This document shows positions 42,601 to 62,785 of a stretch of DNA of 64,000 bases, piece after piece. The notes under the pieces are model-generated. The model ran no database searches and was not told where the DNA came from. It was given only the letters and a program-made list of their open reading frames with translations. Position 1 is the stretch's first letter; every line of letters starts with the position of its first letter. The position numbers and the translations under genes were made by a program. Source of the stretch: Symbiodinium natans (Eukaryota; Sar; Dinophyceae; Suessiales; Symbiodiniaceae); contig CAJNDS010002744.1 in assembly GCA_905221605.1 (NCBI GenBank), positions 232,548-296,547 of the forward strand, in the 5' to 3' direction.

Positions 42601-43578
42601 GGGGGGTACCCATTCCAGGCAACAAAAGAGGGCGGACATGTGGCTGGGCTTGGGGAGGATTGGGAGGGGGGTGCCTGTTCTCACAACCTAGACACCTTCG
42701 GCCCGAGGCCTCGGCGGATTTTGAAGTTCAGGACAGACCAACTTGCTCCCACCAAGACTTAAACCTCCAAAGAGTCCTCCACCCCTTCAAGACATGAAGC
42801 TTAAGTAAGCTTAAAGCCCTTGACTGCTCTGACATGCTCTGACAGGACTGGGAGTTCTGCTTGCGACTTCCCGGCGCTTCTAGGATTCGCTTTGGGGAAT
42901 CTGAGTTTGAATAGTGCTCACAGCTGAGAGTTGTTAGGCATGTGTAAGAGGTGTTTGCAATGGCAGGAATTGCAGGATGAGTTGCAGAGGGATTCCTTTG
43001 GAAAATGGTGTTCCTCTGTGCCCCGAGTTCCGAGTTGGTGCGGCAGGAAGAGCATGGCAAGAAGGCCTAAGCCTTCGTGGAAGAAATACACGATCTCTTC
43101 ATGCGCACACGGGTTTAGACATGACTTGGCTGCAAGGGCTTCTGGCCGACAGGACCATGAGCCATGAGCCACTTTGGAGTTCGGCCCCCCTTGCAGGATG
43201 ACCCTGAAGTTCGATTCGCGCAGCCGGACCGAGGCAATTTGCGGACGAGCAGTGTGGGGTTTAGTAGGGCTATTGGGTTGAGGGTCGCTTTGGGCTCCAA
43301 AAGTGTGACTTTCGAGCCCTCCGGAGGTATCGTGGGAAATGTAGGGGTCCGCGCGTGCTTGTGGAAGCCCGGCAGCTTGGGAGATTGAGAACTGTTGAGA
43401 GCTGTTGGGAGTTGCGGCTGTTGCGCACAAATTGAAGGATTTAACGGTTTACCGGGTTACCCATATTGCTAATCATAGTACCCACACCCTCGCAAGCAAG
43501 GCGGGGCGCGACTTCGTTCAGTTCTTTGCCCATCGAGACCCGGAGACTGGCGAGCTGTCGAAGCGCGACTTGGCTTGA
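39608..43578 (+). CDS. Third multi-exon gene, unidentified protein
   Basis: A provisional locus ends at a TGA at 43,576-43,578. The start was not found. The first visible exon, 39608-39650, reads RDSDMLGVLLGGHT before GTAAATG. The N-terminal half is a charged helix rich in Glu, Arg, Leu and Ala; the C-terminal half looks globular. It is the last gene of the plus block before the satellite complex. It may instead be part of the second locus. Confidence 0.5.
39837..39889 (+). CDS. Exon, helical
   Basis: After TTTTCAAG the frame reads TKQFEAALLRGDAQKNE to a GC donor. A long alternative frame (39,808-40,305, 165 codons) overlaps it, so only one of the two can be right. Confidence 0.5.
40082..40504 (+). 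CDS. Four consecutive exons with matching phase
   Basis: Exon 40082-40125 follows ATCTGCTTCAG and reads SYEARRRAAEGDEE to GTGATC. Exon 40155-40222 follows CTCCTCAG and reads ESARQLRLQALSAALDGEDV then GR to GTGTGG. Exon 40338-40383 follows CAATCCAG, completes Asp and reads EERQLRYAILMRILE to GTCCGTG. Exon 40462-40504 follows GGCCTCCAG and reads DLLAPEPYSKLRSS to GTACGTG. Strong splice sites and continuous phase make this one of the most secure chains; it is likely coiled-coil. Confidence 0.7.
41127..41293 (+). CDS. Probable exon, aromatic-rich
   Basis: After TGGTTATAG the phase carried from exon 40462-40504 gives GCEPNGSRSAWHHVLM, then VPPNVRHYPGPYFLDNVW, then GGLEIACYYKPS before the donor GTAAGAAG. 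Two other frames also look coding (EAVNLMAAGLRGIM and CVASCFDGAAERQALPG), so the frame is not settled. Confidence 0.45.
41487..41549 (+). CDS. Exon, 21 codons
   Basis: Between TGTGCGTTTCCCCAG and GTGCCCC, the exon reads AFLYRALQLRNSEQVLARLS then E, in phase 0-0. The acceptor is very good. Confidence 0.7.
42024..42375 (+). CDS. Three exons of a globular segment
   Basis: Exon 42024-42062 follows GGAAGTTTTCAG and reads DFAASEELMKSAL to GTGGTG. Exon 42157-42223 follows TTTTCTTCTCCAG and reads VAMSGLVAPFTSKGPYPRTR then TE to GTTTAG. Exon 42269-42375 follows CACCAAACAG and reads SSITVDTDHEYHPNEAGG then FNIASPAVGVLNSSLRT to GTGGGTGG. The first two join in phase; the third needs a different donor or a missed exon. 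A short GC-donor exon near 42,399-42,420 (EDVAMVQ) may follow. Confidence 0.65.
42967..43578 (+). CDS. Last exons and stop of the third locus
   Basis: Exon 42967-43007 reads ELQDELQRDSFGK to GTGTTCC. Exon 43197-43251 follows CCCCCCTTGCAG and reads DDPEVRFAQPDRGNLRTS to GTGTGG. Terminal exon 43479-43578 follows GCTAATCATAG and reads THTLASKAGRDFVQFFAHRD then PETGELSKRDLA to TGA. All codons of the last exon are typical of the block, and the stop is followed at once by AT-rich DNA. Confidence 0.65.
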
Positions 43579-43675
43579 AGAGAGATCTCACCCAAGCGAC
43601 TTTGGAAAGGATGTGTATGTCAACAACAACCGCGGGGTCTTGACGCTTCTGCTCTGTGGTTTCAGCTTTGGGTAA
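43579..43675. other. 3' flank of the last plus-strand gene
   Basis: There is a short stretch between the stop and the left inverted repeat. No polyadenylation signal of the AATAAA type is seen. Confidence 0.4.
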
Positions 43676-43712
43676 AAAACATACATAAATACCATATATA
43701 TATGAGCCCGCC

Positions 43713-43733
43713 GCCTTTAGGGTCTATTTAGCT
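43713..43733 (+). repeat. Left copy of 21-bp inverted repeat
   Basis: It begins GCCTTTAGGG and ends TATTTAGCT, and is identical to the reverse complement of 54,106-54,126. Flanking similarity extends it to about 90 bases. Confidence 0.8.
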
Positions 43734-43959
43734 TTGGGTTTTTCTTATTGCTTAAAAAGAGCGAATATAAATATCGTAATACAAAAATACATATTTACAC
43801 CTACATATGGCACGCAAATCTCATGCCCAGCGGTTCTAGGCCTAGCCGCACGCCATTACGAACTGCGAATTTCTGGTTGTTCTTATTTTCATTTGTTTCT
43901 CTTTGCTATCTGTGTATGCGTGTTCTTTTTTCAGCCTGCGTGAAAAAGTCGCTGTTTGG

Positions 43960-46900
43960 CTGCGGCAGAAGGGAAAGAGAAGTGAGAGAGGAGAGACAAC
44001 AAGGAGGCCATTTTAATTTTCTGGAAGGGTATTGATTGAAAAGAAAAGAAGAGACAAGAAACAAGGAGGCGGATGGCACTCTTCTTTATCTATCATCTCT
44101 CCCTTCCTTGCCTCTCCCGTTTCCCTCTATAATTCAAAAGACAAGACCATTCTTGCTCTTCGCAGATCAGAGGAGAGATCAAAAGGAATGCAATTTTAAT
44201 GGGAAGAGCAATGAAAAGAATGGAAGAGAAATGAAGACAGGAGAGGGAGGTGCAAAATCAGGCTAAGAGAAGATGGTGCTCGTTTTCATCTTTCTTCTCT
44301 TGCTCTTTTCCTTTTCAAATAAACAACAAAAGGAAGAACAATGAACATGCAAAGGAACCCGTTTTCTTTTTCCATGTGGGAACAAGGAAAGAACAGAGGC
44401 GATAAGGCGAGAGGAGGGATTTGCTGAAGCATGGGGAGGGTCTACGGACAAGGAGCCAACCCCGCTCACTTTCCCCATCCATTGAAACAGGAAAAGAAAG
44501 GAACAGGGCCTCCATTCCCCTCTTGTTCTTCCTTTCTTGTGTTTTTGTCACATCAAGGGGAACAGGAGAAGAGAAGGGAGAGAGAAGGAGAGAGGAGAGA
44601 CAAAAAGGATTGCATTTGTACTGGGAAGAGCAAAGAAAAGAATAGAAGAGAGATGAATAAAGGAGAGGGAGAGACAAAATAAGGCGCAGAGAAGATGGCA
44701 CTCTTCTTTATCTATCCTCTCCCCCTTATCTCTCCCTGCCCTCTTTCTTTTCGAAATAAGAAAACAAAAAGGAAGAACTATGAGAAGGAGAAGGGGACGG
44801 AAAGGAACAGAAGGGATAGGCCGATAGGAGGGGGTATGGCAAGGTCCACGCGCAAGGAGTCACCCTCTGCTTACCCTTCCACTGCCTTATCATACAAGTT
44901 CCTTTCTTGCGCTGTATCAGTTGAAAGGAAACAGAAGGAGAGAAGGGAAAGGGAAGTGAGAGAGGAGAGATGACAAGGATGGCATTTTTCTGGAAGCGCA
45001 ACTGTACCGGAATGTGGCCACAATAAGCAGGCCAGGGAGACTCAGGCGGGGCAACTGTAGCGGAATGTGGCCACAACAAGCAGGCCAGGGAGGCTCAGGC
45101 GGGGCAAGTCTCTCCCTAATTAGAAAAAAACCAATCTTGCTCTTCGCAAATAGATAAGTGCCCTTCTTCCTCTTCAGGAAATCGCCTTTCCCTTATTTTG
45201 CTTTCTGAAGCGAATAAGAAAAAGAACAGATAAGAAGAGAGGACAGGGAATGACTAGGTAAAGAGAGGAGCTCTTCAATTTTGCATTACTTTTCCTTCTT
45301 GGGGGGTCCTTTTTTCTCCCTTGAAGATGCAGGAACTCTCAAAAGGAACACCCGTTCCATCGCCCATTTACTCTTCCCTTCCTTATCTCCTATGCTTTTT
45401 TCCTTAGTCATTGCAACAGGAGAAGACAGGAAAAGGGCCTCCATTCCCCTCTTGTTCTTCCTTTCTTGTGTTTTTGTCATATAAAGGGGAACAGGAGAAG
45501 AGAAGGGAAAGAGAAGGAGAGAGGAGCGATGAAAGGAACACAATTTTAATGGGAAGAGCCAAGAAAAGAATGGAAGAGAGATGAATAAAGGAGAAGGAGA
45601 GACAAAACAAGTTGCAAAGAAGATGGCGCTCTTCTTAATCCATCCCCTCTCCCTTTTCTCTCCCTTCCCTTTTTCTTTTCGAAATAAGAAAAACTAAGCA
45701 GGAAGAATTATGAAAAGGAGAAGGGTAAGGAAAAGAGCAGAAGAGATAGGCCGAAAAGAGTGATATGATGAAGTATGGCAAGGTCCACACGCAAGGAGTC
45801 ACCCTCTGCTTACCCTCCCACTGCCCTTATCATACAAGTTCCCTTCTTGTGGTTTATCAGCTAAACGGAAACAGAAGGAGAGAAGGGAAAGAGAAGTGAG
45901 AGAGGAGAGACAACAAGGATGCCATTTTAATTTTCTGGAAGGGTATTGAAAAGAAGAGAAAAGACAAGAAACAAGGGGACGGATGGCACTCTTCTGTATC
46001 TATCATCCTTGTCTTTCCCTTTTCCCTCTATAATTAAAAAACAGGCGCCATCTCTCGTCTTCAGGAACCCGTTCACTTTTTCCGTTTGGGAACAAGGAAA
46101 AGAACAGAGGCGATAGGGCAAGAGGAAGAATTTGCTGCAGCATGGGGAGGGTCTACGGGCAAGTAGCCAACCCCGCTCACTTGCCCCATCCATTGTGAAA
46201 AGAACAGGGCCTCCATTCCCCTCTTGTTCTTCCTTTCTTGCGTTTTTGTCATTTAAGGGGGAACAGCAGAAGAGAAGGGAAAGAGAAGGAGAGAGGAGCG
46301 ATGAAAGGAACACAATTTTAATGGGAAGAGCCAAGAAAAGAATAGAAGAGAGATGAATAAAGGAGAGGGAGAGACAAAACAAGGCGCAAAGAAGATGGCA
46401 CTCTTCTTTATCTATCCTCTCTCCCTTATCTCTGCAAGGAATAGAACAGACAGGAAGCAAGGAGACGGAGTGACAAAACTTGTCGCAAAGCTTTATATAT
46501 CTCCCTTGTCTCTCCCTAATTAGAAAAAACCAATCTTGCTATTCACAGATAGATAGGTGCCCTTCTTCCTCTTCAGGAAATCGCCTTTCCCTTATTTTGC
46601 TTGTTGAAGCGACTAAGAAGAACAACAGATAAGAAGAGAGGACAGGGAATGACTAGGTAAAGAGAGGAGCTCTTCAATTTTCCTCCCTATCTCTTATGTT
46701 ACTTTTCCTCCTTGGGGGATGTCCTTTTTTCTCCCTTGAAGATGCAGAAAACTCTCAAAAGAAACGCCCGTTCCATCGCCCATTTACTCTTCAATTCCCT
46801 TCCTTATCTCCTATGCTCTTTTCCTTATTCATTGCAACAGGAGAAGACAGGAAAAGGGCCTCCATTCCCCTCTTGTTCTTCCTTTCTTGTGTGTTTGTCA

Positions 46901-48880
46901 TATAAAGGGGAACAGGAGAAGAGAAGGGAAAGAGAAGGGGAGAGGAGCGATGAAAGGAACACAATTTTAATGGGAAGAGCCAAGAAAAGAATGGAAGAGA
47001 GATGAATAAAGGAGAAGGAGAGACAAAACAAGTTGCAAAGAAGATGGCGCTCTTCTTAATCCATCCCCTCTCCCTTATCTCTCCCTTCCCTTTTTCTTTT
47101 CGAAATAAGAAAAACTAAGCAGGAAGAATTATGAAAAGGAGAAGGGTAAGGAAAAGAGCAGAAGAGATAGGCCGAAAAGAGTGATATGATGAAGTATGGC
47201 AAGGTCCACACGCAAGGAGTCACCCTCTGCTTACCCTCCCACTGCCTTTATCATACAAGTTCCTTTATTGTGGTTTATCAGCTAAACGGAAACAGAAGGA
47301 GAGAAGGGAAAGAGAAGTGAGAGAGGAGAGACAACAAGGATGCCATTTTAATTTTCTGGAAGGGTATTGAAAAGAAGAGAAAAGACAAGAAACAAGGAGA
47401 CGGATCGCACTCTTCTTTATCTATCATCCTTGTCTTTCCCTTTTCCCTCTATAATTAGAAAAACAGGCGCCCTCTCTCGTCTTCAGGAACCCGTTCACTT
47501 TTTCCGTTTGGGAACAAGGAAAAGAACAGAGAGGCGATAGGGCGAGAGGAAGAATATGCTGAAGCATGGGGAGGGTCTACGGGCAAGGAGCCAACCCCGC
47601 TCACTTGCCCCATCCATTGTGAAAAGAACAGGGCCTCCTTCCCCTCTTGTTCTTCCTTTCTTGCGTTTTTGTCATTTAAGGGGGAACAGCAGAAGAGAAG
47701 GGAAAGAGAAGGAGCGAGGAGAGATAACAATAACACCATATTAATGGGAAGAGCCAAGAAAAGAATAGAAGAGAGATGAATAAAGGAGAGGGAGAGACAA
47801 AACAAGGCGCAAAGAAGATGGCACTCTTCTTTATCTATCCTCTCTCCCTTATCTCTGCAAGGAATAGAACAGACAGGAAGCAAGGAGACGGAGTGACAAA
47901 ACTTGTCGCAAAGCTTTATATATCTCCCTTGTCTCTCCCTAATTAGAAAAAACCAATCTTGCTATTCACAGATAGATAGGTGCCCTTCTTCCTCTTCAGG
48001 AAATCGCCTTTCCCTTATTTTGCTTTTTGAAGCGACTAAGAAAAACAACAGATAAGAAGAGAGGACAGGGAATGACTAGGTAAAGAGAGGAGCTCTTCAA
48101 TTTTCCTCCCTATCTCTTATGTTACTTTTCCTTCTTGGGGGATGTCTTTTTTCTCCCTTGAAGATGCAGAAAACTCTCAAAAGGAACACCCGTTCCAGTT
48201 CCATCGCCCATTTACTCTTCAATTCCCTTCCTTATCTCCTATGCTCTTTTCCTTATTCATTGCAACAGGAGAAGACAGGAAAAGGGCCTCCATTCCCCTC
48301 TTGTTCTTCCTTTCTTGTGTTTTTTGTCATATAAAGGGGAACAGCAGAAGAGAAGGGAAAGAGAAGGAGAGAGGAGCGATGAAAGGAACACAATTTTAAT
48401 GGGAAGAGCCAAGAATAGAATAGAAGAGAGATGAATAAAGGAGAGGGAGAGACAAAACAAGGCGCAAAGAAGATGGCACTCTTCTTTATCTATCCTCTCT
48501 CCCTGATCTCTGCAAGGAATAGAACAGACAGGAAGCAAGGAGACGGAGTGACAAAACTTGTCGCAAAGCTTTATATATCTCCCTTGTCTCTCCCTAATTC
48601 GAAAAAGCCAATCTTGCTATTCACAGATAGGTACAGTACCCTTCCTCCTCTTCAGGAAATCGCCTTTCCCTTATTTTGCGTTTTGAAGCGACTAAGAAAA
48701 ACAACAGATAAGAAGAGAGGACAGGGAATGACTAAGTAAAGAGAGGATCTCTTCAATGTCCCTCCCTTTTTCTTATGTTACTTTTCCTTCTTGGGGGGTC
48801 CTTTTTTCTCCCTTGAAGATGCAGAAAACGATCAAAAAGGACACCCGTTCCATCGCCCATATATAGGGAGACAGAGAAAT
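43960..48880. repeat. Purine/pyrimidine-rich tandem units of about 1.4 kb
   Basis: The marker AATCGCCTTTCCC recurs at about 45,180, 46,579, 48,002 and 48,658, and the marker ACCCGTTCACTTTTTCC at 46,069 and 47,488. The period is therefore about 1,400-1,420 bp, with a shortened last copy; a diverged partial copy starts near 44,350. Each unit alternates GA-rich and CT-rich stretches. These often form hairpins, for example AAAGAAGA-tggcac-TCTTCTTT in the segment near 46,388-46,409. Open frames here (Leu/Ser/Phe- or Lys/Arg/Glu-rich) follow from the biased composition and are not called as genes. Confidence 0.75.
44998..45106 (+). repeat. 53-bp tandem duplication
   Basis: Two copies of a GC-richer segment (GCAACTGTA...CTCAGGCGG), starting at 44,998 and 45,051 with four or so differences, lie inside the first purine/pyrimidine unit and are absent from later units. 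Confidence 0.8.
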
Positions 48881-49194
48881 CATGAGCATCAGCTGGGTTT
48901 GCTGCACCACTCAAAACTTCTCAAGTGACCTAGGCACACTCTGCGCCTATACGAGTACATTACAAGTACAAGTGCAAGTACAAGCCTTCGTTTTTGAGGT
49001 AGAGGGCACGAAAGGTGGAGGAGGGCTGGGGGGGGTGGGGTAAAAGAATTATGTAGAGCTACTTATAAGGTTTATACAGTTTATGAAGTGGGCTCTTTTT
49101 TCTCCTTTGGCTAATTTTGGGCAACATTTGCCCTTTGGGCCCAATTTGGCCCCAAAAAAACGGCCCCAAAGGGCCCAACAATGGGAAACGTGCG

Positions 49195-49745
49195 GCTGGA
49201 TTTGGCCAAATTTTGCCGGACAGTCTGCGGGCAAAATTTGGCCAAATCGGGCTGCTCGTCGTACGCGATGAGAAATGCGCGGCTCGATTTGGCCAAATTT
49301 TGCCAAGCAGCCTCCGGGCAAAATTTGGCCAAATCGGGCTGCTCTTCGTAGGCGATGAAAAAGGTGCGGCTCGATTTGGCCAAATTTTGCCGGGCAGCTT
49401 TCGGGCAAAATTTGGCCAAATCGGGCTGCTCTTCGTAGGCGATGAGAAAGGCGCGGCTCGATTTGGCCAAATTTTGCCGGGCAGCTTTCGGGCAAAATTT
49501 GGCCAAATCGGGCTGCTCTTCGTAGGCGATGAGAAAGGCGCGGCTCGATTTGGCCAAATTTTGCCGAGCAGCTTTCGGGCAAAATTTGGTCAAATCGGGC
49601 TGCTCTTCGTAGGCGATGAGAAATGCGCGGCTCGATTTGGCCAAATTTTGCCAAGCAGCCTCCGGGCAAAATTTGGCCAAATCGGGCAGCTCTTCGTATG
49701 CGATGAGAAATGCGCGGCTCGATTTGGCCAAATTTTGCCCGGAGC
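49195..49745. repeat. 87-bp tandem array with a 17-bp hairpin in each unit
   Basis: CGATTTGGCCAAATTTTGCC recurs at 49,285, 49,372, 49,459, 49,546, 49,633 and 49,720, exactly 87 bases apart, with a degenerate copy before. In each unit TTTGGCCAAATTTTGCC is followed about 13 bases later by its exact reverse complement. Because 87 is 29 codons, frames stay open on both strands for more than 200 codons (repeats of RFGQILP/KFGQI on either strand). Confidence 0.9.
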
Positions 49746-49960
49746 TTCCCCCCCTCCCAAGAATTAAATAGTGATTAATTTAAGTACGACGGGGAGGTTT
49801 CGGATTGAAATTATTTAAATTATTTAATTCTTAGGGGGCGGGGAGGGTGGTTCCCCCCCCTTTTCGGATTTCAACTATTTAAACTATATAATGTATTTAC
49901 ATTATTTGAATTGTTTAAATTGTTTAAATTACATGATGTAAATCATTTAATCAAAGCTTT
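49746..49960. repeat. AT-rich spacer with inverted repeat
   Basis: CCCAAGAATTAAATA near 49,757 is mirrored by TTATTTAATTCTTAGGG near 49,820. Both are flanked by C-rich and G-rich runs respectively. The rest consists of TTAAAT-type repeats. Confidence 0.6.
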
Positions 49961-50029
49961 ATATATCTCCCTTGTCTCTCCCTAATTAGAAATACCAATC
50001 TTGCTATTCACAGATAGGTGCACTTCTCA

Positions 50030-50365
50030 TGCTTTTTTGTGTTAGCACGGCTCTACTGACACATATTCCGCGAAAAATGTGTCATGCTTTTTGTCTTAGC
50101 AGAACTCTCGTGACACATATTCCGCGGAAAATGTGTCATGCTTTTTTTTGTTAGCACGCCTCTACTGACACATATTCCGCGGAAAATGTGTCATGCTTTT
50201 TGTGTTAGCACAGCTCTACTGACACATATTCCGCGGGAAAAGTGTCATGTTTATGTTGCTAAGAGAACTCTGGTGACACATATTCCGCGAAAAATGTGTC
50301 ATGCTTTTTTTGTGGTAGCACGGCTCTACTGACACATATTCAGCGGAAAAATTGTCATGTTTTTG
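50030..50365. repeat. 54-bp tandem array with hairpin cores
   Basis: TGACACATATTCCGCG starts at about 50,057, 50,111, 50,166, 50,220, 50,274 and 50,330, with spacing 54-56. Each unit contains TGACACAT, a 12-base CCGCGG-centred loop, then ATGTGTCA, a perfect 8-bp stem. The units differ by a few bases. Confidence 0.85.
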
Positions 50366-50639
50366 GTGAAATTTACGAACACTTACCCCCCGATAAGCAA
50401 GACTTGGAATCACTCCGTTACAAGCAATCAATATTGGCACGCGGCCATTTTTTTCTTCTCAACTATCTCAAAGGGCGCAGTGTCTAGATCGCAAGCATAA
50501 TTTCATTGTGTCTTGACGCATCATAGTGTACCAAAGTCTCTGCATCATAAGCATTGTTTTCTTTGCGCTTTAGTACAGTTTTTTGTACTAAGGTCTTTAA
50601 GCTGTAAGCACTTTTAACGGGAAAGGGCGAGGAGGATAG

Positions 50640-50885
50640 CTTGTGATAACTATGACAATTTATCATAATTATGATACCTTATCATAAGTATGATAACTTA
50701 TGATAACTTATCATAATTATAATAACTTATCATAATTATGAAAAGTTGCTTATCATATTTATCATACTCTGAGATAAAGAACTTGAAGTTATCATAATTA
50801 TGATAATTTAGATCGGGAAGCTAAAGTTATCATAATTATGATAACTTATGATGGGGAAGTTGAAGTCATCATAATTATGATAACT
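50640..50885. repeat. Array of TATCATAATTATGATA palindromes
   Basis: Seven or more copies of the perfect palindrome TATCATAATTATGATA, or close variants, are separated by GTTATC/AACTT linkers and by GGGAAGCTAAAG-like spacers. Confidence 0.85.
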
Positions 50886-51084
50886 TCAGGTTGGTAGTTT
50901 GGAGTGGAGGGGCAGGAGGGGTTAGGTGCGAGTGGTGTGGGTGTAGTAAATTGTTGCAAGGGGGCTTGTTGGGGGTGATGGGGTCGGGGAGCAGGTTGCA
51001 GGTGCGACGCGGTGCGTGGGGTGGCGCTCTGCGAAGTGAGGTGGAAAATTGGGGAGGGGTAGGGGAGGGGAGAGGAGGGGTTAA

Positions 51085-51405
51085 AGCACAAGCCCTCCAG
51101 CCCCTCCAACCCCTCCAGCCCCGCAGAGCCCTCCAGCCAGCCCCTCCAGCCCGCCCCTCCAGCCAGCCCCTCCAGGCGCCCCTTCAGCCTCCAGGTTCCT
51201 CCAGCCACTCCAGTTCTTCCAGTTCCTCCAGCCCCTCCAGCCTCTCCAACCCCTCCAGCCCTTGCAGCAGCCCCTCCAGCCAGCCAGCCCCTCCAGCCCC
51301 CTCCAGCCCCCTCCAGCCCCCTCCAGCCCCTCCAGCTCCAGCCCATCCCTTCAGCCTCCAGGTTCCTCCAGTTCCTCCAGCCCCTCCAGCCTCTCCAGCC
51401 CTACC
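51085..51405. repeat. CCAGCCCCT minisatellite
   Basis: About 35 imperfect copies of the 9-mer CCAGCCCCT occur, with variants CCAGTTCCT and CCAGCCTCT. The 180 bases before it are G-rich on the same strand (GGAGGGG steps), so the pair forms a loose inverted arrangement. Open frames of about 170 codons are composition artefacts. Confidence 0.85.
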
Positions 51406-51424
51406 TAAATAATTTAGTTTATGG

Positions 51425-54010
51425 CTTGGCTGAGTTTCCCCACAATTACATTAATTTAAACGATTTAAACGATTTAAACGATTTAATTGGGTCCAATTAA
51501 ATCGTTTAAATCCGACGCCTCAAATAAATAATTTAGTTAGACCGTAGGATTTAAACGATTTAATTGGGTCCAATTAAATCGTTTAAATCCGACGCCTCAA
51601 TTAAATAATTTAATTAGACCGTAGGATTTAAACGATTTAATTGGACCCAATTAAATCGTTTAAATCGTTTAAATCGTATAAATTAATTTAATTGTGGTGG
51701 GAGGTGAGTACAGACAAGCACAGAGCCAATCAAATTATTTAAATCCGACGCCTCAATTAAATAATTTAATTAGACCGTAGGATTTAAATGATTTAATTGG
51801 TTTATGGTTTGGCTGAGTCCCCCCACAATTAAATTAATTTAAACGATTTAAACGATTTAAACGATTTAAACGATTTAATTGGGTCCAATTAAATCTTTTA
51901 AATCCTACGGTCCAATTAAATTATTCAATTGAGGCGTCGGACTTAAACGATTTAATTGGGCCCAATTAAATCGTTTAAATCCTACGGTCTAATTAAATTA
52001 TTTAATTGAGCCGTCGGATTTAAACGATTTAATTGGACCCAATTAAATCGTTTAAATCCTACGGTCTAATTTGAATTATTTAATTGAGGCGTCGGATTTA
52101 AACGATTTAATTGGACCCAATTAAATCGTTTAAATCGTTTAAATCGTTGAAATCGTGTAAATCGTATAAATTAATTTAATTGTGGTGGGAGGTGAGTACA
52201 GAAAAGCACAGAGCCAATTAAATTATTTAAATACGACGCCTCAATTAAATAATTTAATTAGACCGTAGGATTTAAATGATTTAATTGGTTTATGGTTTGG
52301 CTGAGTCCCCCCACAATTAAATTAATTTAAACGATTTAAACGATTTAAACGATTTAAATTAAACGATTTAATTGGGTCCAATTAAATCGTTTAAATCCTA
52401 CGGTCCAAGTAAATTATTTAATTGAGGCGTCGGATTTAAACGATTTATTTGGGCCCAATTAAATCGTTTAAATCCTACGGTCTAATTAAATTTTTTAATT
52501 GAGCCGTCGGATTTAAACGATTTAATTGGACCCAATTAAATCGTCTAAATCCTACGGTCTAATTTGAATTATTTAATTGAGGCGTCGGATTTAAACGATT
52601 TAATTGGACCCAATTAAATCGTTTAAATCGTTTAAATCGTTTAAATCGTTTAAATCGTTTAAATTAATAATTGTGGTGGGAGGTGAGTACAGACAAGCAC
52701 AGAGCCAATTAAATTATTTAAATACGACGCCTCAATTAAATAATTTAATTAGACCGTAGGATTTAAATGATTTAATTGGTTTATGGTTTGGCTGAGTCCC
52801 CCCACAATTAAATTAATTTAAACGATTTAAACGATTTAAACGATTTAAACGGTTTAAACGATTTAATTGGGTCCAATTAAATCGTTTAAATCCTACGGTC
52901 CAATTAACTTATTCAATTGAGGCGTCGGATTTAAACGATTTAATTGGGCCCAATTAAATCGTTTAAATCCTACGGTCTAATTAAATTATTTAATTGAGGC
53001 GTCGGATTTAAACGATTTAATTGGACCCAATTAAATCGTTTAAATCCTACGGTCTAATTTGAATTATTTAATTGAGGCGTCGGATTTAAACGATTTAATT
53101 GGACCCAATTAAATCGTTTAAATCGTTTAAATCGTTTAAATTAATTTAATTGTGGTGGGAGGTGAGTACAGACAAGCACAGAGCCAATTAAATTATTTAA
53201 ATACGACGCCTCAATTAAATAATTTAATTAGACCGTAGGATTTAAATGATTTAATTGGTTTATGGTTTGGCTGAGTCCCCCCACAACTAAATTAATTTAA
53301 ACGATTTAAACGATTTAATCGATTTAAACGATTTAATTGGGTCCAATTAAATCTTTTAAATCCTACGGTCTAATTAAATTATTTAATTGAGGCGCCGGAT
53401 TTAAACGATTTAATTGGACCCAATTAAATCGTTTAAATCCTACGGTCTAATTTGAATTATTTAATTGAGGCGTCGGATTTAAACGATTTAATTGGACCCA
53501 ATTAAATCGTTTAAATCGTTTAAATCGTTTAAATCGTTTAAATTAATTTAATTGTGGTGGGAGGTGAGTACAGACAAGCACAGAGCCAGTTAAATTATTT
53601 AAATCCGACGCCTCAATTAAATAATTTAATTAGACCGTAGGATTTAAATGATTTAATTGGTTTATGGTTTGGCTGAGTTTCCCCACAATTAAATTAATTT
53701 AAACGATTTAAACGATTTAAACGATTTAATTGGGTCCAATTAAATCGTTTAAATCCGACGCCTCAAATAAATAATTTAGTTAGACCGTAGGATTTAAACG
53801 ATTTAATTGGGTCCAATTAAATCGTTTAAATCCGACGCCTCAATTACATAATTTAATTAGACCGTAGGATTTAAACGATTTAATTGGACCCAATTAATTC
53901 GTTTAAATCGTTTAAATTAATTTAATTGTGGGGGGAGGTGAGTATAGACAAGCACAGAGCCAATTAAATTATTTACATCCGACGCCTGAATTATTACAAA
54001 ATACAGGGCG
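51425..54010. repeat. AT-rich satellite with higher-order unit of about 490 bp
   Basis: The cassette GTGGTGGGAGGTGAGTAC marks unit ends at 51,694, 52,182, 52,673, 53,152, 53,554 and, slightly changed, 53,928. Spacings are 488, 491, 479, 402 and 374. Between cassettes lie subunits of about 80 bp built on the stem CGATTTAATTGG / CCAATTAAATCG, with linkers CCTACGGTC and GACGCCTCA in either orientation and runs of ATTTAAACG. Shorter spacings reflect loss of whole subunits. There is no coding capacity. Confidence 0.9.
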
Positions 54011-54105
54011 TAGGATTTAAATAGTTTAATTAAGCTTTCTCTATTTAAATAATTTAGTTATTTAAATACATTAAATTATTTTCTGCTTATTATAAAAAAG
54101 GAATG

Positions 54106-54126
54106 AGCTAAATAGACCCTAAAGGC
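54106..54126 (-). repeat. Right copy of 21-bp inverted repeat
   Basis: Exact reverse complement of 43,713-43,733, followed outward by TA repeats and TATTTATGTATGTATTTA, as at the left edge. Confidence 0.8.
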
Positions 54127-54340
54127 TGCTCTTTCATATATATATATATATGTATATTTATTTATGTATGTATTTATAGACACCTTGTTTGGCCCCTATA
54201 TACCTAAGTAGCCCCTAAATAACCCGTCAGTAACCCCTAAGGTCCCTTGTAAGGGCCCTCCTTTCGTCCCCTGACAATTCTGGTGGTCACTGCAAGCTTG
54301 GTATCACGAACCTGCGCAGGGATGAGATCTAACAACCCTG

Positions 54341-54620
54341 TAGGGTTTAGGGTTTAGGGTTTAGGGTTTAGGGTTTAGGGTTTAGGGTTTAGGGTTTAGG
54401 GTTTAGGGTTTAGGGTTTAGGGTTTAGGGTCTAGGGTTTAGGGTTTGGGGTTTAGGGTCTAGGGCTTTTTGAGGGTTTAGGGTTTAGGGTTCAGCGTTCA
54501 GGGTCTAGGGTTGCTGGTTTAGGGTTCAGGGTTCAGGGTTTAGGGTTTAGGGTTTAGGGTTTAGGGTTTAGGGTTTAGGGTTTAGGGTTTAGGGTTTAGG
54601 GTTTAGGGTTTAGGGTTTAG
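54341..54620 (+). repeat. TTTAGGG array (G strand on plus)
   Basis: About 35 telomere-type heptamers with a degenerate middle (GGGTCTAGGG, GGGTTCAGGG). Sequence continues on both sides, so it is interstitial here. Confidence 0.95.
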
Positions 54621-54738
54621 TTCGGGTCTGTATTTCAGATATTCCACGTGCGGCCGTGACCACCACAGAAGCCATAACCATCCTCGCCTCACCCGGCTGC
54701 TTAAAAGTTGATGTGGCGCCTTGCCTGTATGTCACATA

Positions 54739-54836
54739 GCCCCTAAACCCTAAACCCTAAACCTCAAACCCCAAACCCTAAACCCTAAACCCTAAACCCT
54801 AAACCCTAGACCCTGAACCCTAAACCCTAAACCTCA
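54739..54836 (-). repeat. CCCTAAA array (G strand on minus)
   Basis: About 13 heptamers in the opposite orientation to the preceding array, 120 bases away. Confidence 0.95.
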
Positions 54837-54961
54837 AGATTGGGTGAAACCTTCGTCGCAATTTAAATGAGTTCGCAGGATGCAGTCCCGCAACCCCCAA
54901 AAACTGGTGGATCCGACGAGCTTTCCGACGCAACGCTTACGCCTCAGAGTGCGAAGAATTT

Positions 54962-55029
54962 TGGGGGTTTAGGGTTGAGGGTTGAGGGTTGAGGGTTTAG
55001 GGTTTAGGGTTTAAGGTTTAGGGTTTAGC
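54962..55029 (+). repeat. TTTAGGG/TTGAGGG array
   Basis: About nine heptamers, mixing TTGAGGG and TTTAGGG, back in the plus orientation. Confidence 0.9.
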
Positions 55030-55391
55030 CTAGGTGGGCCACAAATCCCTATCACTATCATTCAGAATCATTCACGCATATCCTTGCGCGGAGGCATACC
55101 AACAACCAGAAACAAAACCAAAGACATGCAGTGTCCTAGGGTCGAAGGGGGGTTCATGCCCAATGCCAACGCATGCAAGGACAAAATTGACACTACCAGA
55201 AGAACAGAAAGGATGCCACTTCCACTCACATGGAATGGGAACGGCAAGCACGAGGCTTCTCGACAAAGAAATCCATCTGCACTCTTTGGATCAGCGCCTT
55301 GCGCAGGTGCCATACCTACGAGCGGCTTACCAGTTGACAGTGGGATGTTGTGTGCTCGTACTTTGCCTCGGGCCTTGAGCACGCGCGGTGA

Positions 55392-55970
55392 CTACTTGGG
55401 GTGACTGATCTCGGCCACTTTGCCGCGGTTGTCCCGCAAGTTCCTGTCTGCCCCAGCTTCCAGCAGCAAATGCACGATCTCAGTATGGCCGTTGCCAGCA
55501 GCGTGCATCAGAGCGGTCTTGCCTTCGAAGTCCTGCAAGTCCAGTTTGACACTAGCTTCCAGCAGCAAACGGACCATCTCAATGTGGCCCCGGCCACACG
55601 CATGCATGAGAGCTGTCTTCTCGCTTGTAACACCGTCCTGCCAGTTCTTGTCGGCCCCTCCGTCAAGCAGAGCGCGGGCCACTTCAACATGGCCTTGCTT
55701 GGCGGCGTACATCACGAACTCTTCTGTAGCACGGCGTTCCAGGTCTGGCCTGCCCAATGTGGGGTGCACCACTAGCTGCCACTCACTCGTTTTCAGAGCC
55801 ATGCCAGGAAGTTCCTCGAAGCCGCTCTCAGACTCAAAAAGCCGTTGAAAGCACATTGGGTAGTGATACTTGTCACGCAGGTGGCGCTTCACGGACACCA
55901 CATCCCAGAAATTCTTCTTGGGCTCAGCGGCAAGCTCTTCCCCGGAAACACGGCTCCACACGCGCAGCAT
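55392..55970 (-). CDS. Ankyrin-repeat protein with ubiquitin-like N-terminus
   Basis: An uninterrupted frame of 192 codons runs from ATG at 55,970 to TAG at 55,392-55,394. Residues 1-75 (MLRVWSRVSGEELAAEP...) match the pattern of the ubiquitin-like N-terminus seen in many Symbiodinium ankyrin proteins: a short hydrophobic strand, SGEEL, a V.S.KRHL helix and a final W.LVVHP strand. From about residue 84, three ankyrin repeats follow, with the TALMHACGRGHIEMVRLLLE and TALMHAAGNGHTEIVHLLLE signatures and AAKQGHVEVARALLDGGAD. Ankyrin repeats bind protein partners; no catalytic residues are present. The gene is intronless, unlike those of the plus block, which suggests a retrocopy. It lies alone among telomere-like arrays. 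The last repeat is followed by only about ten residues. Confidence 0.9.
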   Translation of the reverse strand: MLRVWSRVSGEELAAEPKKNFWDVVSVKRHLRDKYHYPMCFQRLFESESGFEELPGMALKTSEWQLVVHPTLGRPDLERRATEEFVMYAAKQGHVEVARALLDGGADKNWQDGVTSEKTALMHACGRGHIEMVRLLLEASVKLDLQDFEGKTALMHAAGNGHTEIVHLLLEAGADRNLRDNRGKVAEISHPK

Positions 55971-56019
55971 GGCACTGGCGTCTATTCAATCTGCCTCACC
56001 CTGATAGGGTCCTTAAAGG

Positions 56020-56034
56020 GGGGGGGGGGGGGGT
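56020..56034 (+). repeat. Short poly-G run
   Basis: Uninterrupted G run just upstream of the ankyrin gene start (on its 5' side). Confidence 0.85.
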
Positions 56035-56210
56035 TTCGATGGGTGTAACCCAAGGTTCCCGAATAAAAACCCACTTAAACCTTAAACCATACACCGCTAC
56101 TCCCTAAGGCTCCACCCCTGGCTTGTCTAAGATTCCCTAGGTACCTACCCCCCATGAACCCTGATGATGGCTCGGCCAAATCCCTGCGGACCAGGAGTAC
56201 CCTTAATACC

Positions 56211-57045
56211 CCTAAACCCTAAACCCTAAACCCTTGATATGTTCACTTGGTAGCACCCAAAGAAACCAACTATGACAAGGGCACCCGTTCTTTGGTTGGC
56301 TACTTTAAAAATAAGTAAAGGGCCCCACTGGGCTGCCAAGCTCAGCAAACTCCACCCCAACCCCTAAACCCTAAACCCGAAACCCTAAATCCGAAGCCCG
56401 AAATCCGAAACCCTAAACCCTCAACCCTCAACCCTAAACCCTAAATCCGAAACCCTCAGCCCTAAACCCTCAACCCCTTAGGCTCCTTGCGCTGCCCCTT
56501 ACCCCCTCAACCTGCCGGACCACAGTTTTCTGAGCTCAAGCCTAGCGTCAAAAGAGCCATATGGGGGTTTCAAATGATGCCTGGAGGTGCGTGGCACTTA
56601 ATAGGATCCAGGGTTTAGGGTTTGGGGTTTGGGGTTTAGGGTTTAGGGTTTAGGGTTTAGGGTTTAGGGTTCTCGCTCCAAGACGGTGTATTGAAACTCT
56701 GTTCTTTGGGCATTGGGGGGAGGGGGGCTAAGCCGCCAACCGCTAAATCTAAGCAGCTAATGCCCAAACATCTAGTTCCAAGCTCCGAACATCTAACCCC
56801 CAAACCCTAAAACCCTAAACCCTGCATGAACCCTAAACCCCCAATCCCCAAACTCCACCAAAACAGGGTGCTGGAGGCCAAAGCCAAGGTAGGCGCCACC
56901 TGCAACAGGTGCTGGCGACCCTCCAAGCCCAACACTCTAAGGCCAAACCCTGAGAAGACGGCCGGAACACACTGATTCCTAAACCCTGAAGCCCTAAACT
57001 CCTAAACTCCTAAACTCTAAGCCCTAAGCCCGAAGCCCTATAGAC
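56211..57045. repeat. Degenerate telomere-like blocks, mixed orientation
   Basis: CCCTAAA-type runs lie at 56,211-56,233, 56,365-56,476, 56,795-56,825 and 56,975-57,045. A TTTAGGG run lies at 56,610-56,670. Between them is unique sequence with no gene I can support. Confidence 0.85.
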
Positions 57046-57205
57046 TTGTACTTTAGGCGATAAACCCAAAAAAACTGAACCTAGACTTTCCAAAGCTCTA
57101 CGAGTGTAAACTCCTTACAAAAACTATACCAAGACAAGACACTAAGCCGCAAGCCTTGGGATGTTCCCCCTTATGTGAAGAGTCCTTAATAGGGATTAGA
57201 ATGGG

Positions 57206-57430
57206 GGGTTTAGGGTTTAGGGTTTAGGGTTTAGGGTTTAGGGTTTAGGGTTTAGGGTCTAGGGCTTTTTGAGGGTTTAGGGTTTAGGGTTTAGGGTTTA
57301 GGGTTTAGGGTTTAGGGTTTAGGGTTTAGGGGTTTACACCACGCACAAGTCCCTCAACTCCCAAAACTTAGGGTTTGGGGGCTTAGGGTTTAAGGTCTAG
57401 GGTTAGATGATGGGGTTTAAGGTTTAAGGT
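57206..57430 (+). repeat. TTTAGGG array and degenerate tail
   Basis: About 18 heptamers at 57,206-57,332, then degenerate GGGTTTAAGG copies to 57,430. Confidence 0.9.
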
Positions 57431-57603
57431 CCTCCCAACACCCCTGCCCTCGAAAACCCTAACCTCCCCCGAACCTCCCTAAACCCCACACCTGCGCCCT
57501 AAGCTACCAAGCGCCGCCTGACAACAACCGAAAAACAACACAAAGCCCTGAAGCCCGAAAAATCGATTTGAAACGCATGTGCCCCAAAGAAACTTGACAA
57601 ACT

Positions 57604-57604
57604 C

Positions 57605-57636
<32 letters not shown>

Positions 57637-57653
57637 ACCCCCAACCCTCAAGC

Positions 57654-57685
<32 letters not shown>

Positions 57686-57774
57686 ACCCCCAACCCTGAA
57701 CCCTCAACCCTCAACCCTAAACCCCCAACCCCCAACGCTCAACCCTAAACCCTAAACCCTAAACCCCCAACCCT
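57604..57774 (-). repeat. CCCTCAA variant array
   Basis: About 24 heptamers of CCCTCAA (TTGAGGG on the minus strand), ending in CCCTAAA. The homogeneous variant suggests local amplification rather than telomerase addition. Confidence 0.95.
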
Positions 57775-57889
57775 CCTGCGGACCTTGCGAGGCCGACAGG
57801 GCCAGGAGGCCCAGCTGCGACCAACGCCGGTCGGGGCTCTCCCCGGACCACTCGATGGACGCCATGGCGCCGAGGTCCGCAGTAGGGTT

Positions 57890-58095
57890 CAGTAGGGTTA
57901 GGGTTTAGGGTTTAGGGTTTAGGGTTTAGGGCTGAGGGTTGAGGGTTTAGGGTTTAGGGTTTAGGGTTTAGGGGTTTAGGGTTTAGGGTTTAGGGTTTAG
58001 GGTTTAGGGTTTAGGGTTTAGGGTTTAGGGTTTAGGGTTTAGGGTTTAGGGTTTAGGGTTTAGGGTTTAGGGTTTAGGGTTTAAGGTCTTGAGGG
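57890..58095 (+). repeat. TTTAGGG array
   Basis: About 28 heptamers in the plus orientation, the second-longest clean run in the window. Confidence 0.95.
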
Positions 58096-58640
58096 TTCAG
58101 GGTTGAGAGTTTGAGGCTTTGAGAGGTTTTTTGAAGGCTGTTGTGATTCAGGGCTGAGGGAGGACCTCTTCACGTCTTCGGCGCGGTCTACAAAATCCGC
58201 CCGGCATGGAGGGTCGTCTACGTGTTCCCTGCCATGCTCCCAGCGAGGCACCGCAGTTAGTTTGTTAGTCCTTCTGGCTGGATGGGGGATGGCTTTGGCT
58301 TTTTTGGTTTTTTTTGTGGATTTCTTTTTCCGTCTTAGGGCAATATAATCTAGGTGGAATGGAGGTACGGTCTCGGTTCGGACTGCGAGCAAAGAGCAAG
58401 GTGCCACGTCACAACCGCCATGCAAAAAAGAACGATGCTGAGCCACTTCACTCCTTAAACCCCACACCCGAACCCTGAAACATTAAGGCCTCAAGCCCTT
58501 AAAACTCCCAAGCCCAAACCCTTCAAGCCGTAAACCCTAGCCCTGAAACTCTAAAACCCTTAATCCCATAAACCGCACCCTTCAACCCCTAAACCCTCAA
58601 ACGCTCAACTCCTGAGCGAGCCAGGAACGGAAACTTTTTG
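58096..58640. other. Unassigned stretch with coding-like frames on both strands
   Basis: On the minus strand a basic frame (RRKKKSTKKTKKAKA, then RTNKLTAVPRWEHGREH) is open for 128 codons. On the plus strand VFGAVYKIRPAWRVVYVFP is open in the same place. Neither has clear splice support. CCCTAAA-like pieces follow at 58,500-58,600. Confidence 0.3.
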
Positions 58641-58644
58641 AGTT

Positions 58645-58778
58645 CATCAGTTAGGGTTTAGGGTTTAGGGGTTAGAGTTTAGAGTTTAGGGTTGGGGGTT
58701 TGGGGTTTAGGGCTCAGGGTTTAGGGTTTAGGGTTTAGGGTTTGAGTTTAGGGTTTAGGGTTTAGGGTTTGAGGGTAA
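58645..58778 (+). repeat. TTTAGGG array, partly degenerate
   Basis: About 18 heptamers, including GGGTTTAGAG variants. It is the last telomere-like array before the minus-strand gene block. Confidence 0.9.
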
Positions 58779-58779
58779 A

Positions 58780-60120
58780 ACAGAGGGGGTCGGTAACTTG
58801 GGGGGCCAGCACAAAAATGAGACGAACCTATTGCGAACCCAAAAAGGCACAGCGAACTTCTGCGAAGCCTGCGGGGGTTCGAGGTGGGTTAGTGGTCGGG
58901 CGGGTTGTTGCACAAATCTCAGGAACGCAAGAGAAACAAGAGCAGCCCTTCTTTTCCACAAATCTGCAGCATCGACGAATGGAATGGCCCTGTACCTGCC
59001 AAGGGCAGGAGAAACTCTGCAAAAACAATGTTTCACTTCTGGCTGACAAAGCACTGCAACGCTCCTTTTTATGGCCCGGCCCCATCGATGGGAGTATGAA
59101 GAACCCGATACTCTTGAAACAATACTACAGATGACCCACAACAAGATCGTGAAAGGTGCCTCACTGAATTTGACTCCTGAAGAATAGTTGAGAAGATTCA
59201 GTTGCTTGGGTTATCGGCAAGATGAACCACGGCTTTTAGCAATGAGTTCCGTAATGGACCTACCTTGTACGACCAACCAATCAGGAATGACCTCAGAGTC
59301 ATGGCCACGGCCCAGGCGTGACTCTATGTCAGCACTCACCCAGTCACGAACATTTTCGTACCAAACCACTTGGCGCTCAGCAATGGCGAGACGAGTTTGA
59401 AGGTTTGCTGCGCTCTTCTCCAAGGCGTCTTTCTCTGAGCGGAGGGACCCGAGCTCCTCCCTCAAAGCCACGCTTTCTGCACGAGCTTGGGCAGCTTCCT
59501 GAGCAGTAGCCGAGCGGGCAGGAATGAGCCCTGGTGAGTAGCAAGGGTGGTTGGGAGGGACCTGAACTGATGATGCTGCTGCAAAGGCTCTGCACACATG
59601 GGGCACTGGATGGGGATGTTCTCGTCTTCTGCATCCGAAAACTCCTCCTGAATTGATTTCTTGTCGCTTTCATCGATGCAGGACAAAAACCTTTAAATAA
59701 AAAACTCCCATCCCCAGTGACGCAAGGCAAACCAGTTTCCTGTTTGACGACAACCTCCTTCTTCACCCTCTCTTCCTTCACGGCATCGAGGAGTGGAGGG
59801 GCCTCCGCCTCATCGCAGTCGACTGAAGGGCCTTTTTTTTTTGAGGCATAGAGCTTGTTTAAGGCAGCTCGCCTCTCTTTTGCTGTCTTGGCCGCCTTCA
59901 CCGTGGGATGGTCCTCGAACTTGGACTTAACCCTCTTCCTTCGACTGGCCCGGTTCCTTTCGTACAACTTGGCCAAGGCTTTTCGGCGCTCAGCAGGAGG
60001 AAGGTCAGCGATTTCTGAGTCATACTTCGACACGTTCTTGCGGACCTTGGCTTTGGCCTTGGGTGAGTCTTGAGGAACCACCGCCTCATCTTCTGACTCA
60101 TCATCATCCTCATCATCCAT
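58780..60120 (-). CDS. Spliced gene: acidic/basic N-terminus, CPMC motif, coiled coil
   Basis: ATG at 60,120 opens MDDEDDDESEDEAV. Basic segments follow, with two similar AERRKALAKLYERNR / KERRAALNKLYASKK repeats, about 140 residues in all. After a frame change near 59,700 (a short intron is likely), a segment reads DKKSIQEEFSDAEDENIP then QCPMCAEPLQQHHQFR. It ends at donor AG|GTCCCTCC (59,561). A 63-nt intron leads to acceptor CTACTGCTCAG. The next exon, 59498-59264, reads EAAQARAESVALREELG, SEKDALEKSAANLQTR and ERQVVWYENVRDWV, a coiled coil, to donor GTAGGTCC. CxxC with no visible partner pair suggests a partial zinc knuckle or RING. Small exons probably continue toward 58.8 kb (for example after TTGTTTTTGCAG on the minus strand near 59.02 kb). 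Function is unknown. Confidence 0.6.
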
Positions 60121-60677
60121 TTTAATAGTCAGTGCGCCGACACTGGACTAGGCTGGCTAAGAAAAACCTCAAGTCAAGAAGTATGGCACTCAGCTATTAT
60201 GTACTTTTATTAGAAAATATTAAAAAATGACTCTGTCTGTACTGTACTTCCTGCATTGAAGTGAAACCTTTGAATAAGCCAAAACAGAATCGCTGAAAGC
60301 TGCCAGCAAATACAAAGCAAGAGCAGCGCAACAAAGATAAACCTCTGACTCAAAACTGCTGGCTCACTGGCACGGGCGCCCGGACGGGCCCAGCGAGTCG
60401 GTGACCGTGCCTCAGCGTCACAAGAACATCCAGCTGTGACACTTCAATGGTGTGCTTCCAGAAAGTGACTGAATGCAATGCCTAGCTTTTGTTCTCTGGA
60501 GCGCTCGCGTGCACTGACTGAAGTGAAGCGAAGGTCCTCTGCCAAAATGTCTTTGTCCTCAGGCCACCCTACTCCGGAGATGTGATCTCTACTCAGAATA
60601 TTATATTAACAATTCGGTTGATTCAATGAACACCTGCGAGGATGAATCTGAAGGACAAAATGACAAACCACTGGAAA
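60121..60677. other. Intergenic stretch between two minus-strand genes
   Basis: About 550 bases hold the 5' flank of the downstream gene and the 3' flank of the upstream one. An AT-rich part lies near 60,195-60,235. No gene or clear motif was seen. Confidence 0.5.
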
Positions 60678-62064: not shown

Positions 62065-62099
62065 TGCTCACTGAAGGACCACCGGTTCAACTACTCACA

Positions 62100-62760
62100 G
62101 ACAGTTGACTTCGAGGGACGAAGGCTTGATCACGAGAGCTGCGCGCAGTAAGATTTCAATGAAAGACCTGCGCTTCGCAGATTTCCGCTCCGGCTTGAAA
62201 CAATCTTCGTCATTTATCTCAGCTGCCAGCAGTCAGCAGAACCATGTCCTTCTGCGACGATTCATCGGGGGAAGAACCTGCGAGAAGGGCACGCTCGCAT
62301 TAATGGATCCCTAAATTTGATAAGCAGTTGCATACATCAGACTGGAAACGATGAGAAGAACCATAGCTGAGTCCGTGGCGGAGTTCGGAGGCGGGTTCGA
62401 AGGACCTGCCGGCGGAGAACACGAGGTAAGGTTTCCAAGTTGACCTTTAACTTATTATTATGAATTCTACATATAAATGTATATATATATATATATGTGT
62501 GTTTCTTCATCGTCTGTGGGCTTGGCGTGGGTCCTGCTGCAGTTCTACATTACATCATCACCTCGTCTGTGCTGACCACGCACGGTACTTTTTTTCCTGG
62601 CCTCTTGAAGTTCCAAGGCCGGCTCCAAATTGAAACACTTTTCAATAGCGGCAGACTGCCGGATGGCCCCACACAGTAAGACGGAACTGATCAGTAGTGA
62701 CAGTGCAAATTCAGGATGCTAAACGTTACTCTAACTTTTATGAATCTCGTCCAGGGCCTA
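62100..62760. other. Intergenic stretch
   Basis: It includes a TA microsatellite near 62,472-62,497. No gene is supported, although short plus-strand frames exist. Confidence 0.5.
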
Positions 62761-62785
62761 CTGGATGGACCCTGGCGCTCGAATT

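Follow-up and report, generated by a model that had tools for sequence, protein, structure and literature searches.

The SaTar elements of guayule and rice, which include Micron, are described as non-autonomous transposons with “terminal inverted repeats” (TIRs) that are often flanked by TA microsatellites and that occur in modular, non-nested clusters (PMC5907723). The MuTAnT elements of Medicago are described as mostly 200-300 bp in length, with a mean TIR of 47 bp and a putative autonomous Mutator-like element (PMC4486113). In Tetris, a foldback transposon of Drosophila virilis, internal tandem repeats are reported to have seeded satellites, and the internal repeats of Galileo are described as containing further sites to which the transposase binds (PMC4079207). 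The present work concerns a 64,000-nucleotide stretch of the genome of the dinoflagellate Symbiodinium natans (assembly GCA_905221605.1, contig CAJNDS010002744.1, positions 232,548 to 296,547; “the window” in what follows), and within it an AT-rich island that spans about 43.7 to 54.2 kb, with a fall in the G+C fraction (GC) over 10 kb from about 0.55 down to 0.30-0.48. In the right part of this island lies a block of palindromic tandem arrays, which the original prediction had taken for four unrelated satellites that happen to adjoin at one special place. The block is interpreted here as the right-hand portion of a giant class II (TIR) transposon that is non-autonomous and inserts in TA microsatellites, a reading to which a probability of roughly 0.82 is assigned; this figure covers the identity of the mobile element and not the role of its palindromic arrays. 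Among the titles and abstract openings listed, mainly outside the subscription literature, in searches for dinoflagellate palindromic tandem repeats, satellite DNA and non-autonomous TIR transposons, none described such an element.

The two edges of the element carry one sequence in opposite orientations: an 18-mer taken from the edge occurs within the window only at both edges (with up to three mismatches), and the resemblance is clear over about 30 bp and then ends. The same ends recur across the genome, which comprises 759 Mb in 2543 contigs. The exact TIR 21-mer occurs 108 times (60 forward, 48 reverse) and the reversed control gave 0, as it did for the spliced-leader core of dinoflagellates, whose 205 exact copies mark the genome as that of a dinoflagellate. 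Among 100 listed TIR places on 65 contigs there are 24 pairs of facing TIRs that lie 8.2-13.2 kb apart, and one more facing pair, 28.5 kb apart, was left uncounted. The DNA searches of the genome score only the best candidates, so that counts of genome matches are lower bounds. Of 137 candidates for a query across the left edge, 40 were scored, and 38 of these start at query position 15-42, the others being the window itself and the copy on contig C2455. For the right-edge query, in which the element ends at position 116, 40 of 2327 candidates were scored; the whole flank was matched by the window alone, 39 further main matches stop at 118-164, with one of these at 191, and there are six short or weak extra pieces besides. 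TIRs at common ends and many dispersed copies between unlike flanks, two of the features expected of a class II element, are both found.

The flanks that were read are mostly of one kind. The ends of the copies read (AT)n/GAGCCC on the left and CTCTTTC/(AT)n on the right, where the slash marks the junction, and alternating AT runs 10 nt or more in length abut the element at 12 of the 16 distinct left flanks and 11 of the 14 distinct right flanks, while such runs make up 98 of the 64,000 bases of the window. The insertion in TA microsatellites by which SaTar and MuTAnT elements are recognized is therefore seen here as well, and part of each flanking AT run could belong to the element. Among the flanks that lack an AT run, one on each side is a junction between two elements, and the other three on the left and two on the right lie in degenerate AT-rich repeats. 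The two halves of the element are tied together by the linker between the 87-bp and 54-bp arrays, which matches the 5-kb array of the left half (Table 1). Long TIRs built of subrepeats, which characterize foldback elements, are absent, since the TIRs measure about 30 bp and the palindromic arrays lie toward the right only; nor are there the long stand-alone tandem arrays of a satellite, the arrays being internal modules of a dispersed element in the copies that were read.

Table 1. Features of the element in window coordinates.
Feature	Position	Strand	Description
Whole element	43704..54135	+	10,432 bp; ends of other copies coincide here; flanked by AT runs 43694-43703 and 54136-54151
Left TIR, GAGCCCGCCGCCTTTAGGGTCTATTTAGCT	43704..43733	+	25 of 30 bases equal to right TIR
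Left terminal region	43704..43966	+	common to copies L045, L047 and L048, whose interiors differ; 91.7-96.2% identical
Long tandem repeat	43967..49130		higher-order unit of about 1.4 kb, no hairpin excess (self-comparison, stem counts, fold z)
87-bp array	49181..49739		6.4 copies; a perfect stem of 19-20 bp around a 12-nt loop in five of the six units and a stem of 12 bp in the other; recurs in other copies
Linker	49952..50027	+	91-94% identical to pieces of the 5-kb array at 46486, 47909 and 48564
54-bp array	50027..50365		28-bp near-palindrome per unit, e.g. TGACACATATTCCGCGGAAAATGTGTCA; 8-bp arms
TATCATAATTATGATA (TATCAT) cluster	50640..50886		stems up to 21 bp
CCCTCCAGC array	51093..51402		no long stems within the array; partial pairing between its left edge and the preceding G-rich stretch
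490-bp array	51410..54010		six units with 21 palindromes and 15 in-core spacers; compared with units 1 and 6, units 2-5 have inverted cores
Right TIR, GAAAGAGCAGCCTTTAGGGTCTATTTAGCT on the minus strand	54106..54135	-	from self-comparison and genome matches

The four palindromic arrays that had been named at this locus, those of 87 bp, 54 bp, TATCATAATTATGATA and 490 bp, are all present by direct reading and in a tandem-repeat scan, and the chain that they form is interrupted by the CCCTCCAGC array, the G-rich stretch and linkers. When perfect, non-overlapping inverted repeats with a stem of at least 10 bp and a loop of at most 30 nt are counted, with very simple arms dropped, 37 of the 41 in the window fall between 49130 and 54068. 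The numbers of stems of at least 10 bp, compared with the means of dinucleotide shuffles, are 6 against 0.1 in the 87-bp block, 3 against 0.03 in the TATCAT block and 26 against 0.8 in the 490-bp block. In a fold test that used RNA parameters on 160-nt tiles over the whole window, with 20 shuffles per tile, 22 of the 31 tiles that cover 49121-54080 have a z below -4, compared with 4 of the 368 other tiles. Seven copies of TATCATAATTATGATA (3 exact, 4 with one mismatch) lie at 50661-50882, and 100 shuffles gave 0. Among the 21 palindromes of the 490-bp array, 19 have stems of 11-22 bp, mostly 20-22, with loops of 0-2 nt, and the remaining two have longer loops.

The dyad symmetry claimed for the repeating units is present in all four arrays, and it is far beyond chance in the 87-bp, TATCAT and 490-bp blocks. 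In the 54-bp array the arms are intact in 4 of 6 units; this block has zero stems at the 10-bp threshold, and one of its units folds at z -3.0, with 2 of 200 shuffles folding equally well. Of the stem lengths first given, the 8-bp arms of the 54-bp array stand, whereas the 17 bp of the 87-bp array become 19-20 bp and the approximately 24 bp of the 490-bp array become mostly 20-22 bp. Such symmetry is not ordinary among the few other repeats of the window that were compared: the 5-kb array has 1 stem against 0.5 in shuffles, with a fold z that is never below -2.7, and no stem excess was found by the shuffle test in the CCCTCCAGC array or the telomere-like arrays of the window, yet 3 of the 4 hairpin-rich tiles outside the block fall in a telomere-like stretch. 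A virus-collection scan with a palindrome 20-mer returned one contig, which matches in that short stretch only, and Rfam gave no match in the window at the gathering threshold. A permissive Rfam search gave 124 matches, nearly all of them to microRNA precursors and all under gathering scores; these were read as generic hairpin matches.

The arrays are found again elsewhere in the genome. The 490-bp array query has at least 408 genome matches on many contigs, and the 87-bp array is found at 24 places, the window among them, with 99-100% identity across 555 or more of 570 bases, and at 41 places with an identity of 94% or more. The palindromic arrays recur together in further copies of the element, which removes the premise that they are independent satellites, and the dispersal of the same block at dozens of loci with common ends does the same for the premise of a special place. 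Since the block is one repeated mobile element, the co-occurrence of its arrays is a single inherited arrangement. Array content and length differ among copies, and in each of the 12 copies measured (of 15) the part beyond the first 5.2 kb holds more stems than the part before it.

One copy, on contig C1775, is informative about the design of the arrays. Starting at the left end, it agrees with the window at 99.4% identity as far as window position 51811 and then diverges; its right part consists of an array that does not look like a palindrome array, followed by a diverged palindromic array of the same design that ends, at a TA repeat, in a variant TIR. The 490-bp array is matched there locally at 65-70% identity, and in the palindrome cores, compared by eye with those of the window, CG has changed to TA on both arms with pairing kept. 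Of this second subfamily, C1775 is the sole copy followed as far as the right end; C516 also runs into the replaced region. Other copies differ in other ways. L045 and L047, of which 2.5 kb each were read, share with the window only the left 266 bp, and their CCCTAAA-rich interiors, 97% alike between the two, mark a further subfamily. In L048 the left end is followed by an internal module (the 54-bp array region, at L048 222-2052) in inverted orientation. In C2158 (L033, from about 7936) the first 490-bp unit gives way to a long open stretch with the reverse-transcriptase-like motif GVQQGDPLGPLLFA, which is probably a LINE insertion.

The orientation and the divergence of the palindrome cores bear on how the arrays arose. 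In the 490-bp array of the window, the spacers of units 1 and 6 run one way (4) and those of units 2-5 the opposite way (11), although the direction of two single-copy words of the unit does not change. Of the 16 loci parsed, 13 have every spacer that was called in the direction seen in units 1 and 6, two (the window and C2455) show both directions, and L009 shows the opposite one, but the right end of L009 lies on its minus strand, so that it agrees with the 13. These orientations imply that cores bounded by inverted arms flipped and were then copied. Together with the inverted module of L048, the inverted cores in 4 of the 6 window units give indirect support to the recombination that had been proposed for the locus. 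Arms differ from the reference word less than spacers do: 118 of 8480 positions against 193 of 4785 in 212 palindromes from 14 loci (C2455 being omitted as a near-copy), and 9 of 840 against 24 of 495 in the window alone. In the 87-bp array, variable columns number 2 of 40 in the arms against 12 of 47 in the rest. In all, 142 of the 212 palindromes are perfectly symmetric.

A sequence of events that would account for these patterns is that a transposase encoded elsewhere moves the element via its ends; that palindrome arrays were seeded within the element and then grew, flipped and were homogenized there through slippage during replication, template switches at hairpins and recombination between inverted arms; and that transposition spread the resulting arrangement through the genome. 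The domain PF10551, confirmed as MULE (Mutator-like transposase), occurs at 8 places (C2107, C2459, C1091, C2248, C58, C257, C2380 and C280), seven of them with equal score, which suggests a recently multiplied Mutator-like family. In a partial test, these 8 contigs showed no overlap with the 65 that carry the 100 listed TIR places (of 108), and the one PF10551 locus that was read has neither the TIR of the element nor a TA run of 12 or more.

Several observations weigh against the reading of the block as part of a mobile element, or against a need for its palindromes. Three weak right-edge pieces (74-81% identity; C1802 twice, C1744) extend past the element end to query 233-255. A target-site duplication, expected to be 9-10 bp for TA-targeted Mutator-like elements inserted outside microsatellites, is unreadable because AT repeats lie on both sides. 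No empty site turned up, the sole match of the left flank other than the window and C2455 being a 36-base piece repeated on C2053. This piece occurs six times at C2053 177854-187156 with a spacing of 1.6-2.1 kb, and is perhaps an exon of a tandem gene family. C2455 shares with the window 691 bp of left flank (window 43000-43690) at 100% identity and the element at 96.7%, while the right flanks differ, and one of the two assembled copies may therefore be misjoined through the repeat; the mismatch is possibly an assembly error or the product of recombination inside the element. Neither a transposase nor an autonomous partner was found in the six frames of the window copy, most other copies not having been read, and Pfam gave nothing above cut-off in six frames of the island, the best match being a transporter model at E 0.004 and half its cut-off. 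With respect to the arms, 114 single-arm changes stand against 2 positions altered on both arms in the 212 palindromes. Since the palindrome pattern tolerated no more than 4 substitutions in the 24-base core, it is biased toward conserved arms; the arm and spacer counts are not independent, and shared ancestry inflates tests on them; and arm-to-arm conversion could be the cause of the low arm divergence.

Two accounts of the palindromes are compatible with the transposon, and they compete over the role of the arrays rather than over the identity of the element. The first, which is somewhat short of an even chance, is selfish or neutral growth of hairpins inside the element, with arrays that have no role. 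It fits the dominance of single-arm decay, which weighs against strong selection or a strict need for perfect pairing, as well as the variation of array content and length between copies and the presence of stemless arrays in the same element, and it has a parallel in Volvox organelle DNA, where palindromic repeats that appear selfish are reported (PMC2670323). It accounts less readily for the crowding of stems in the right part of every copy measured, and for C1775, the one copy of its subfamily read to the right end, whose diverged array has the same palindrome design and occupies the corresponding right-terminal position, with the paired CG to TA change on both arms. The second account, by analogy with Galileo, is that the arrays may act in cis by offering a transposase or host partner extra symmetric binding sites near the right end. 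The bias of the pattern, shared ancestry and possible arm conversion together make this favoured role a tentative proposal, to be held with about one chance in three, and the absence of a role the more probable of the two. The kept design in C1775 fits the idea that selection or a mechanism favours hairpins; the argument from adjacent independent satellites fails. A bolder proposal, which is improbable as a whole, is that palindrome arrays beside one end are required by a dinoflagellate lineage of giant TA-targeted transposons, the extruded hairpins or cruciforms being recognized and the design kept while the letters change, and that insertions would plant hairpin-rich, AT-rich islands able to act as chromosomal landmarks. 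Dinoflagellate chromosomes are largely without nucleosomes.

Other explanations deny that the block belongs to a transposon. That four independent satellites adjoin here because hairpins are selected at one place, as a boundary or a replication or recombination site, draws on symmetry that is real in the inverted-repeat, shuffle and fold tests, on a dip in GC like that reported at Hi-C boundaries of S. microadriaticum, which dip from 51 to 46%, sharply at convergent sites (PMC8110479), and on an ankyrin-repeat open reading frame (ORF) on the right that points toward the block. The dip, however, is the element itself, and the same block with common ends occurs at dozens of loci; long ORFs on the right are even by strand (12 and 11), and no gene was recognized on the left of the block, so that convergence of genes cannot be shown. 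This explanation is accordingly very unlikely. Scarcely any better placed, and slightly less probable still, is the suggestion that the 10-kb unit is the tandem repeat of a macrosatellite whose fragments are the dispersed copies. Four contigs do carry two elements head to tail with an equal TIR spacing of 41 bp (in the two junctions that were read, the elements share a single AT), and further ends lie about 1-30 kb from another copy in C1224, C1744, C1827, C2197, C2215 and C2311; but copies lie between unlike flanks in microsatellites, and the four junctions compare with 24 facing pairs among the listed places. A nuclear insertion of organelle DNA can be set aside almost entirely, for although mitochondrial non-coding DNA is reported to be rich in inverted repeats in C. 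cohnii, K. micrum and A. carterae (PMC2151934), the stems of C. cohnii and K. micrum are described there as typically G+C-rich and the 490-bp and TATCAT stems are A+T-rich, cox1, cob and cox3 domains were not found in six frames nor rRNA at the gathering threshold, and dispersed copies with TIRs and common ends would be unexpected.

The surroundings of the element in the window are of mixed character. To its right are telomere-like TTTAGGG arrays with several strand switches (54341-58776), which include a CCTCAAC array at 57604-57775, the ankyrin-repeat ORF (55395-55985, minus strand) and long ORFs on the minus strand at 59380-63610 without a Pfam match above cut-off; the end of the window is the end of the contig. 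To its left, G-rich runs and a long CGCCCTCCG-type array lie at 4184-5361. On this side a codon model, for which five ORFs from the right had served as the training set, picked out nothing but a GC-rich repeat (4581-5177) and a run of AGA (18344-18475). Pfam gave one sub-threshold match in six frames of 28.6-43.6 kb (Velvet, E 0.1) and one in four of six frames of 13.6-28.6 kb (SR-25, E 0.0009), and in 1-13.6 kb, searched with Pfam via single ORFs only, no gene was recognized. The spliced-leader core was not found in the window at up to 5 mismatches.

With the block read as part of a transposon, a puzzling coincidence becomes one mobile object, in which unlike palindromic satellites are planted together across the genome. 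If the arrays are needed for mobility, the element would be a transposon that reads the shape of the DNA beside its end; if they are not, it offers a clear case of hairpin arrays that grow, flip and spread inside a mobile element. In either case the dozens of similar islands are usable for testing the effect of such DNA on dinoflagellate chromosome structure.

The macro-dyad satellites of Tribolium madens have dyad symmetry and orientation changes within arrays, as here (PMC13081366), but are described as multi-megabase and putatively (peri)centromeric, whereas the present arrays are shorter than 3 kb and lie in a dispersed element. Introner elements of Amoebophrya are likewise dinoflagellate, non-autonomous and equipped with inverted repeats (PMC7789003), but they are reported in introns, with inverted repeats of 8-20 nt near splice sites, while a 10-kb element in a TA microsatellite is seen here. 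Tetris and Galileo are, like the present element, DNA transposons with internal tandem repeats; theirs are described as lying inside the TIRs, and those found here lie between short TIRs, with the palindromic ones rightward. MuTAnT shares the TA-microsatellite target, the propensity to fold back and, as reported, a non-autonomous majority, and differs in that the present element has TIRs of about 30 bp and hairpins that are internal. SaTar elements are similarly non-autonomous, with TIRs and TA-microsatellite flanks; those of guayule are described as about 400-1700 bp long and Mutator-like, while the copies studied here measure 8-13 kb, consist mostly of tandem repeats and showed no link to Mutator in the partial test. 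By analogy, then, the element would work most like the TA-targeted SaTar and MuTAnT and the satellite-bearing Tetris, but at a far greater length and with its palindromes to one side.

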